A DNA stretch of 34,821 bases from a virus: the IMG/VR virus record IMGVR_UViG_3300042445_000177, positions 1-34,821 of that record. One strand, written 5' to 3'. The notes beneath the pieces were generated by a model that worked only from the letters and a program-made list of their open reading frames with translations, was not told the origin of the DNA and did not search any database. Within the stretch, counting starts at the first letter, position 1, and every line of letters begins with the position of its first letter. Both the position numbers and the translations under genes were made by a program. Below are positions 7,136 through 9,154 of this stretch, in pieces.

Positions 7136-7148
7136 ATTGCAGTGCAAT
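7136..7148. promoter_or_regulatory. 13-bp perfect dyad (operator-like)
   Basis: ATTGCA-G-TGCAAT is a perfect palindrome around one central base. It is directly followed by TATAGTCTAT, which contains a -10-like TATAGT (7148-7153). A dimeric repressor site overlapping a start region is a reasonable reading, but no good -35 box is present. Confidence 0.4.
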
Positions 7149-7192
7149 ATAGTCTATTTTACCTTTTTGTATGCTATAGCGCCTACAGCAAC

Positions 7193-7348
7193 ATTAACAC
7201 AACAACAACACCCCCTCCCCCCTATGTCACTTTGTAGCGTTGTTTCTATACCACAGTGTTGTATTAACACAACAGTATCGATGTTAGTGAGTGCTTACCA
7301 ACATAGACTATATTATATGATATTGTATAGTGTTGTTTCTACGCAACA
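7193..7348. repeat. Direct and inverted repeats around a C-tract and AT-rich stretch
   Basis: ATTAACACAACA occurs at 7193-7204 and 7263-7274. TAG(C/T)GTTGTTTCTA occurs at 7235-7248 and 7328-7341. TGTTGT (7257-7262) and ACAACA (7269-7274) form an inverted repeat, as do GTTG and CAAC at 7332-7347. CCCCCTCCCCCC (7211-7222) and an A/T-only-like run (7304-7330) lie between. Such iterons beside an AT-rich segment resemble replication origins. Confidence 0.6.
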
Positions 7349-7460
7349 GGGTATGTATTGCGATGATGCACCTATACCGGATTACCTAGTTAGTGAATAC
7401 CAACCTATACCGACTATGCTATTAGGGTAAACCCTTACGGGAAAGTCCCTATATAAATAT

Positions 7461-7488
7461 TTGGCACAATGCTAAAAATACTTATACA
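7461..7488 (+). promoter_or_regulatory. Possible promoter of the rightward arm
   Basis: TTGGCA (7461-7466, 5 of 6) is followed after 16 bp by TATACA (7483-7488, 4 of 6), ending 57 bp before the ardC start. Just upstream lie small inverted repeats AGGGT-AA-ACCCT (7424-7435) and GGGA-AAG-TCCC (7439-7449). The match is modest. Confidence 0.45.
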
Positions 7489-7515
7489 ATTAAACCTAGC
7501 AGCACAATTAAACCG

Positions 7516-7532
7516 GCAGTATCCTAAACTAA
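7516..7532 (+). repeat. Leader motif before ardC (duplicated before gp88)
   Basis: GCAGTATCCTAAACTAA stands 30 bp before the ardC ATG. It recurs exactly at 8475-8491, 32 bp before the next gene. Both copies are followed by a GGA-containing ribosome site and end in TACAAAATG. A shared regulator site or RNA element for the two genes is likely. Confidence 0.7.
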
Positions 7533-7545
7533 AGGACAATACAAA

Positions 7546-8418
7546 ATGAGCGCACTAATATATCAGCAAGTAACCGACCAAATCATTAAGCAATTAGAAG
7601 CCGGCGCTACGCCTTGGGTTAAGCAATGGAATGGCAGCAGCAGCGCCAACCATAACGCCGTAAGCGGTAAAACGTATCAAGGTATCAATACTCTCATTCT
7701 CGCCATGAGCGCCGCCGCTGGCGGGTTCAAATCCAACCAGTGGGCAACGTATAAACAATGGTTAGAATTAGGCGGACAAGTACGAAAAGGCACTAAGGGC
7801 ACTACTATTATTTTTTATTCACCGGTGACTGGCAGCAAAATCACTGCCGACGGCGTAGAGAAAAGCTATCATTACGTCCTAAAATCGTATAGCGTTTTTA
7901 ATGCCGACCAAATCGATGGCTATACGCCGCCGGTAGTAACGGTTAAACCGTTTAACAGCATTGCAGCATTAGAGGCATTGGCGACTGATAGCGGCGCTAT
8001 AATTAAGCACGGCGGCGATAAGGCGTTTTATTCGCCACGCAATGATTTTATCCAAATGCCAAATAAAACCGACTTTACTAATGAAGCGGCATATTATGCG
8101 ACTTTATTACATGAGATGGCGCACTGGTCCGGCGCTTCTAACCGTTTGGACCGGGACTTATCGGGACGTTTTGGTAATGAAGCCTACGCCGCCGAGGAAT
8201 TGATAGCGGAATTGTCGGCAGCATTTTTATGCGCTGAATATCAAATTGACGGCGACTTACGCCACGCCGGATACATTGCTTCATGGTTGCGTATTCTTAA
8301 GAATGACAATAAGGCAGTATTTAAGGCAGCAGCATTAGCGCAAAAATCAGCGGATTACATTAAGGCATTGTCTGCCACTGCAGTGGAGGCAGTATCGGAG
8401 GAATTGATAGCGGCATAA
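7546..8418 (+). CDS. ardC: ArdC-like antirestriction protein (ssDNA-binding domain plus zincin)
   Basis: This is a 290-residue protein. The N-terminal half (about 1-130) is the ArdC N-terminal type, with YQQVTDQIIKQLEAGATPWVKQW, QGINTL and LELGGQVRKGTKGT. The C-terminal half is a zinc metallopeptidase-like domain with HEMAH (H189, E190, H193) and a downstream acidic helix EELIAEL (217-223) that may give the third ligand. ArdC proteins are known from plasmids and phages to protect incoming DNA from restriction; the role here is inferred from the family. It is the first gene of the rightward arm, consistent with very early expression. Its bases are rich in GCCG/CGGC words, unlike the structural genes, which suggests later acquisition. 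Confidence 0.85.
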   Translation: MSALIYQQVTDQIIKQLEAGATPWVKQWNGSSSANHNAVSGKTYQGINTLILAMSAAAGGFKSNQWATYKQWLELGGQVRKGTKGTTIIFYSPVTGSKITADGVEKSYHYVLKSYSVFNADQIDGYTPPVVTVKPFNSIAALEALATDSGAIIKHGGDKAFYSPRNDFIQMPNKTDFTNEAAYYATLLHEMAHWSGASNRLDRDLSGRFGNEAYAAEELIAELSAAFLCAEYQIDGDLRHAGYIASWLRILKNDNKAVFKAAALAQKSADYIKALSATAVEAVSEELIAA

Positions 8419-8419
8419 T

Positions 8420-8460
8420 CTAGGGGTAAGCCCTAGTATATTTTCTGAATGTACTAGGGC
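8420..8460 (+). promoter_or_regulatory. Alternative hairpins between ardC and gp88 (attenuator-like)
   Basis: CTAGGG (8420-8425) can pair with CCCTAG (8431-8436). Alternatively, GCCCTAGTA (8430-8438) can pair perfectly over 9 bp with TACTAGGGC (8452-8460). The two structures share the middle segment and exclude each other. No clean U-run follows the second stem, so a classical terminator is not established. Confidence 0.5.
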
Positions 8461-8474
8461 ATTATTCTTATCTA

Positions 8475-8491
8475 GCAGTATCCTAAACTAA
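8475..8491 (+). repeat. Leader motif before gp88 gene (copy of ardC leader)
   Basis: This is an exact 17-base copy of 7516-7532. It is followed by ATGGAGG, giving a strong GGAG ribosome site, and TACAAAATG at the start codon. It lies 15 bp after the alternative hairpins. Confidence 0.7.
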
Positions 8492-8506
8492 TGGAGGCAT
8501 TACAAA

Positions 8507-9154
8507 ATGATACGATTATCAAAAACCAGTAAACTAGATGGCATTCTCTCATGGTCACTACAGGCGCTTGAGACTTGCCCGGGCAGCATTGCAAAAAATG
8601 GCGACTTAGTACCGGCGTGCAAGGGCTGCTATGCAACAACGGGTAATTACAATTATCCTAACGTGAAAGCGCCACGCCTTGAAAACCGGGATGACTGGCA
8701 GCGCACTGAATGGGTTAGTGAGATGGTATCGGCACTGGGTAATTCCCGGTATTTTCGCTGGTTCGATAGCGGCGACTTATACAGCGCCGACTTAGCGGCT
8801 AAAGTTTACGCCGTGATGGTTGCCACGCCATGGGTTAGTCACTGGTTGCCGACTAGAATGCACAAGTTTAAAAAGTTTACTAATATATTGCATAAAATGC
8901 AGTCACTGCCTAACGTCGCCGTGCGTTATTCTAGCGATAGCATTACCGGCGAAACCGTGCAGGGCTCTACTACGTCCACAATTTTTAGCAGTGAAGCACA
9001 ATTACCGGATAACGCCACGGTATGCCGTGCTTATGAGAATGAAGGAAAATGCAGCGGCTGCCGCGCGTGCTATGATAAAAACGTGGCAGTCATCGCCTAT
9101 AAAGCGCACGGGGTTAAAATGGCGAAAGTAATCCGCATTGCAGCAATGGCTTAA
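8507..9154 (+). CDS. Gp88-family Cys-rich protein
   Basis: The product is 215 residues, recognised as the phage Gp88 family (named after a mycobacteriophage product of unknown function). Two cysteine groups are seen: C24...C38-x2-C41-Y near the N terminus, and C173...C182-x2-C185-x2-C188 near the C terminus, suggesting iron-sulphur or zinc binding. Conserved-looking aromatic and acidic motifs lie between them (FRWFDSGDLYS at 83-93, HWLPTR at 112-117). It has the same leader as ardC and the same GCCG-rich base use, so the two genes probably moved and are controlled together. The activity is unknown; a redox or nucleic-acid-modifying enzyme and an anti-defence factor are both possible. Confidence 0.75.
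   Translation: MIRLSKTSKLDGILSWSLQALETCPGSIAKNGDLVPACKGCYATTGNYNYPNVKAPRLENRDDWQRTEWVSEMVSALGNSRYFRWFDSGDLYSADLAAKVYAVMVATPWVSHWLPTRMHKFKKFTNILHKMQSLPNVAVRYSSDSITGETVQGSTTSTIFSSEAQLPDNATVCRAYENEGKCSGCRACYDKNVAVIAYKAHGVKMAKVIRIAAMA

Follow-up and report, generated by a model that had tools for sequence, protein, structure and literature searches.

In the early region of phage T7, where hairpins lie between the genes of an early operon, RNase III cuts between the genes, giving separate mRNAs. Hammerhead ribozymes are known to flank single genes in phages and prophages, with a triple hammerhead set around ardA in Agrobacterium, and the processing of mRNA into single-gene mRNAs was proposed for such hammerhead-flanked phage genes (Perreault et al. 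2011, PMC3088659). An anti-restriction role, in turn, is known from plasmid ArdC proteins (PMC5512222).

Here we consider two adjacent genes, ardC (7546-8418, + strand) and gp88 (8507-9154, + strand), of the viral record IMGVR_UViG_3300042445_000177, whose whole analysed stretch of 34,821 nt is referred to below as the window. Like the hammerhead-flanked systems (PMC3088659), this locus and its relatives feature structured RNA between early or accessory phage genes, adjoining an anti-restriction gene. Unlike in those systems, the genes are of the ardC and GP88 types, a common leader of 12-17 nt follows each RNA element, and the element in the window is a hairpin, hammerheads being found in the relatives only. 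T7 likewise has hairpins between early genes; unlike in T7, cutting in the window is a prediction, and a phage RNA polymerase was not found among the genes scanned. While ribozyme-flanked phage genes are already known, the arrangement of hairpin, leader and ardC-GP88 genes is a new variant.

The leader and its surroundings in the window

The same 17-base sequence, GCAGTATCCTAAACTAA, precedes both genes on the + strand, as claimed in the first-pass annotation. One copy (7516-7532) starts 30 bp 5' of the ardC ATG (7546), the other (8475-8491) starts 32 bp 5' of the gp88 ATG (8507), and the identity between the two extends to 20 of 21 bases, reaching the Shine-Dalgarno region. These are the only copies in the window at up to three mismatches (0.08 expected; two copies reached in 0 of 100 shuffles). 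Pairing of UCCU with AGGA is possible in all leader copies; the leader RNA has no structure above chance in the shuffle comparison, and sequestration of the Shine-Dalgarno sequence by this pairing was rejected as the main explanation (z = 0.15 and 0.72 for the leader folds).

Counting from the divergent terminase/portal block, these two are the first large genes on the + strand. They open the rightward arm, as had been suggested, and we infer their early status from this genome position. The GCCG-rich base usage ascribed to both was also observed, the density of GCCG and CGGC being 24.1 per kb in ardC and 18.5 per kb in gp88 vs 0-10.4 per kb across the 22 further genes for which it was determined. 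For close relatives, the median densities are 24.1 for ardC, 18.7 for GP88 and 20.6 for a 243-aa family found in place of GP88; the medians for their backbone genes are 2-6.4, and that for GP88 from other phages is 4.8. In this lineage (window 7546-9154 and close relatives), the density is high in the slot whichever family fills it.

Upstream of ardC, a weak possible sigma-70-type promoter (TTGGCA-18-TACAAT, 10 of 12 matches) is located at 7461..7490 on the + strand, its sequence being also retained in two relatives (L004 and L007); overall, the scan yielded 14 such sites vs 16.7 expected in shuffles. A second sigma-70 promoter before gp88 was rejected, as none was found in the scan, and so was a promoter for a phage RNA polymerase, as no such polymerase was present among the genes scanned. 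Between ardC and the divergent terminase lie approximately 800 bp with imperfect direct and inverted repeats (7137-7450; TATGTCACTTTGTAGCGTTGTTTCTA..., AATATAGTCTATTTT/AACATAGACTATATT), which are possible operator sites.

The leader in related contigs

Viral contigs were scanned with exact patterns, and the sequence downstream of the matches was inspected. Among the relatives, the conserved part is a shorter core, (G)CAGTATCCTAAA, followed by 1-8 variable bases and the Shine-Dalgarno sequence. This core was observed before ardC in ten cases (the window, L004, L006, L007, L010, L012, L014, L097, L144, L146), before GP88 in the window, L007, L013, L014 and L097, and before the 243-aa protein replacing GP88 in L006, L010, L012, L096, L146 and L148, with a variant form in L004. 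It is also found before members of a 253-aa GP88 subfamily (L154, L155, L156, L165, L171), distant GP88 genes (L098, L153), a 58-aa gene (L098, L165) and a 108-113-aa gene (L149, L152). Overall, the core precedes at least five unrelated gene families, and ardC itself lacks it in relatives of the L098, L153 and L154 type. Some other matches to a looser pattern (e.g. L157-L178) are unrelated, arising by chance or belonging to other families.

The leader is hence conserved in other phages before ardC and the gene that follows it, but it is not specific to the pair; the view of it as a mark of ardC and gp88 is not supported, since the same core stands before the 243-aa, 253-aa, 58-aa and 108-113-aa genes. 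One group of contigs (L100-L107) has a different common leader, ATACAG..AAAGGG. It recurs ahead of ardC and a number of further genes, and every copy directly follows a GC-rich hairpin or a hammerhead. Thus, the same plan, a structured RNA followed by a common leader and a gene, occurs twice, with different sequences.

Structured RNAs adjoining the leader

The spacer between ardC and gp88 contains a long RNA hairpin of approximately 22 pairs (8421..8470, + strand), probably an mRNA processing or 3'-end element. Its folding energy is -27.0 kcal/mol vs -10.1 kcal/mol in shuffles (z = -6.7; 0 of 200 shuffles). A long stem-loop is present between ardC and the next gene in every close relative, the hairpin being retained in 16 contigs with energies of -20 to -29 kcal/mol, and the stem persists despite changed sequences of the arms (L097, L146, L098 and others). 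Changes on both sides were seen in 5 of the 18 consensus pairs; the underlying alignment A4 fits the two hairpin clades imperfectly, so that the pair counts understate conservation. In all relatives the leader starts 4-12 nt past the hairpin.

An RNase III processing site would consist of approximately 20 bp of double-stranded RNA between the genes that the enzyme cleaves; the hairpin has about 22 pairs, and its cleavage is predicted. A consensus scan flagged the same hairpin as terminator-like, with a T-rich tail, and it may end transcription. A GC-rich stem directly followed by a U run would be expected of an intrinsic terminator, but G-C pairs are scarce in this stem, and the tail, ATTATTCTTA, is of mixed composition, with some of its bases paired. 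The window has no match in Rfam, nor does it contain a hammerhead core (CUGANGA-stem II-GAAA-stem III-UH with stem I).

In the relatives, hammerhead cores were predicted in 11 distinct contigs (L096, L100, L101, L102, L104, L105, L106, L108, L112, L121, L148), with none in the reversed sequence and none in 10 shuffles of the 1.9 Mb. In L096, L108 and L112 they lie upstream of ardC, and in L100-L106 they directly follow it; in L148 the core precedes the 243-aa gene, and in L121 (at 2696) it comes after GP88. Just 5' of the leader in L096 (1133-1220) and L148/L180 (L180:1950-2034), the order is stem I, CUGAUGA, stem II, GAAA, stem III, GUC, stem I; the minimum-energy fold of the L096 element is the expected three-way junction. 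The predicted cut falls slightly upstream of the leader. The hammerheads stay below the Rfam gathering score, which no match in the relatives reaches; the weak matches are HH9 (17.7 bits, E = 0.042), HH3 (18.8 bits, E = 0.09) and the RAGATH-1 hammerhead (21.4 bits, E = 0.13).

Linkage of ardC and GP88 and exchange of genes

With the window proteins as queries, most relatives have the portal and the large and small terminase genes on one strand, followed by a rightward arm with helicase-primase and DNA polymerase at its end. The early gene normally found next to the divergent terminase is GP88 (60-71% identity). In 55 GP88 loci with at least 1.3 kb of flank on both sides, terminase was found upstream in 38 and ArdC in none. 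Thus, ardC is an optional insert, and GP88 the core gene of this position.

Seen from the side of ardC, the linkage is tight. In each of the 18 contigs whose ardC has at least 58% identity, a gene of the GP88 superfamily comes next or after one small gene, and four types of the superfamily occupy this slot (GP88, n = 5; 243-aa type, n = 7; distant GP88, n = 2; 253-aa type, n = 4). Some of these contigs were found via the leader; all eight found by ArdC alone also fit. A GP88-type gene lies within the fetched stretch at 19 of 51 ArdC loci vs 0 of 28 control loci (Fisher p = 7e-5, an optimistic value, as related contigs are not independent), and more distant cases are L121 (adjacent), L027 and MW202796 (reverse order) and L115/L141. 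Linkage to a GP88-type gene is therefore seen in 18 of 18 contigs when starting from ardC, but GP88 stands without ardC in all 55 well-flanked loci, and hence adjacency needs no joint anti-defence role.

The genomes of the marine podophages MK613346 (CRP-4), OR420734 (CRP-804) and KC465900 (HTVC011P) have GP88 or ArdC as their first or second gene. Both families thus show a preference for the leading early position.

The contig L148/L180, with terminase genes at 88-89% identity, has the 243-aa gene and lacks ardC. Its leader and the ardC of L096 are preceded by matching stretches of 88 nt (82%); from the leader onward, L148/L180 matches the second cassette (77%). As read from these sequences, the joint between presence and absence of ardC lies at the leader.

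The ArdC and GP88 proteins

The assignment of the first gene to the ArdC type is confirmed by both expected domains, an ArdC-N ssDNA-binding domain (PF08401, ArdcN; residues 5-118, E = 9.5e-36) and a C-terminal zincin-like metallopeptidase domain (PF18818, MPTase-PolyVal; E = 1e-49) with an intact HExxH motif (HEMAH). The same two domains and HExxH occur in ArdC of plasmid pSa and the ArdC-N/MPTase families of polyvalent proteins (PMC5512222). By analogy with plasmid ArdC, the protein probably shields DNA from restriction during entry or replication; unlike pSa ArdC, it is phage-encoded and is delivered as a gene rather than alongside conjugated ssDNA, and its activity is predicted. There was no match in PADLOC and none above the cut-off in NCBIfam.

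The gp88 product belongs to the GP88 family (PF17338; E = 1.2e-30, 107.6 bits vs the curated cut-off of 24.4) and has exactly seven cysteines (C24, C38, C41, C173, C182, C185, C188), the number reported for it earlier. In alignment A1 (49 sequences), the last six are invariant, and the first is nearly constant. The AF2 model (pLDDT 91, pTM 0.89) had no Foldseek match against PDB at E of 0.001 or better. The radical SAM reading comes from a second-look structural alignment (VIA), where the best 26 rows are all radical SAM enzymes, among them SuiB, QueE, EpeE, lipoyl synthase, viperin, NifB and MiaB, with Z of 4.6-6.9, below 8.

The model places three cysteines behind an early strand (13-16) and the four-cysteine site ahead of the last strand, and an invariant DxGD motif (D87..G89 D90) after strand 82-85 is similar, though not identical, to the GGE-like SAM-binding motif; this predicted layout resembles a radical SAM barrel that carries an auxiliary site. 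The radical SAM motif CxxxCxxC after strand 1 is absent; instead, C24-x13-C38-x2-C41 follows strand 13-16. A longer form of the cluster motif is known from QueE. Since the standard motif is lacking, we do not assign GP88 to the radical SAM superfamily. Its cysteines, in groups of four and three, are consistent with the prediction of a radical-SAM-like Fe-S protein, and the last ones resemble Fer4 motifs; judging from the model, an Fe-S enzyme of radical-SAM-like fold is the probable identity of GP88.

Besides GP88 (PF17338), two further families of phage proteins gave profile matches: the match to DUF7227 has E = 8.6e-8, and DUF5131 is weakly matched by 28 of the 49 GP88 members (best E = 6.6e-4). 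The link to radical SAM enzymes itself stands on predicted structure; we found neither solved structures matching GP88 by sequence nor plasmid relatives, and the literature collection searched contained no paper usefully linking GP88 with radical SAM. The profile comparison of GP88 with the 253-aa subfamily gave no match, though Pfam assigns both to GP88.

The 243-aa seven-cysteine family (L146:6668-7399 and relatives, alignment A3) is a remote relative of GP88. It has the same three-plus-four cysteine plan, matches the GP88 profile (probability 80%, E = 1.3e-5) and has structural neighbours in common with GP88, its first six structural rows being radical SAM enzymes, at low Z (3.6-4.7). The family is annotated as hypothetical in 148 phage records, many of them from phages of Mycobacterium, Klebsiella and Gordonia.

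Possible explanations of the arrangement

The identity of the leaders, the hairpin, the hammerhead cores near the leader and the presence or absence of ardC can be read directly from the sequences. The explanation that we favour, with some confidence, is that of exchangeable early cassettes, co-transcribed and cut into single-gene mRNAs with a common leader. The head of the early rightward arm would consist of swappable cassettes, each comprising a common leader (the core GCAGTATCCTAAA, then the Shine-Dalgarno sequence and ATG), a single gene and an element of structured RNA. The genes ardC and gp88 would be co-transcribed, and the hairpin between them would be cut by RNase III or a similar enzyme, in parallel to the self-cutting hammerheads. 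Separate ardC and gp88 mRNAs would result, having the same 5' leader and hence possibly the same control of translation or stability, and the repeated leader would be the joint where the cassettes swap.

Alternatively, the hairpin could be an intrinsic terminator and the leader could contain a promoter, making the genes separate transcription units with the same promoter. The terminator-like score and the T-rich tail agree with this, as does the start of the leader 4-12 nt after the hairpin in all relatives. We nevertheless consider it unlikely: there is no sigma-70-type site at 8420-8507, TATCCT has no -35 partner, no phage RNA polymerase is present among the genes scanned, the tight spacing to the ATG and the Shine-Dalgarno sequence fits an mRNA leader better, and a hammerhead rather than a terminator comes before the leader in L096/L148 and L100-L106. 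If, on the contrary, the leader were a recombination joint only, a short homology carried with the cassettes and having no regulatory role, it would bound the presence and absence of ardC, and the gene after it would be exchanged, as is indeed observed for four families. However, the core is identical while the next 1-8 bases and the type of the Shine-Dalgarno sequence vary freely, which suggests constraint beyond copying, and the position of the core is constant, at 13-20 nt from the ATG; this makes a purely recombinational role highly improbable.

The view expressed in the first-pass annotation, that ArdC and Gp88 form a dedicated, jointly controlled anti-defence pair with its own leader, draws on the linkage described above: the GP88-superfamily gene in all of the 18 contigs whose ardC has 58% identity or more, the 19 of 51 ArdC loci vs 0 of 28 controls, the distant cases (L121, L027, MW202796, L115/L141), and the refilling of the slot by distant members of one superfamily. 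It appears quite unlikely nonetheless, as the leader is not pair-specific, GP88 is without ardC in 55 of 55 well-flanked relatives, as is the 243-aa family at all 38 of its distant loci, ardC adjoins terS without GP88 in L117 and L122-L124, and PADLOC gave no match. A role of GP88 in defence, though conceivable, finds support in none of the present results. A bolder extension of the cassette explanation would have hammerheads and long hairpins interchange, the leader double as the swap joint and as a site bound by a single regulator, and the second cassette be reserved for a new radical-SAM-type family working with ArdC against host defence; in this full form it is speculative and distinctly improbable.

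A common leader and adjacency alone do not demonstrate a shared anti-defence function, and this calls for caution in reading such gene pairs. Under the explanation by exchangeable cassettes, a shared leader that looks like chance would become part of a plan for packaging early genes: one gene, a processing element and a standard leader, freely exchanged. For GP88, which occurs in bacterial and archaeal viruses, the analysis also provides a first structural hypothesis, namely that these are Fe-S proteins resembling radical SAM enzymes; the same hypothesis applies to the 243-aa relative that is present in many mycobacteriophages and Klebsiella phages.
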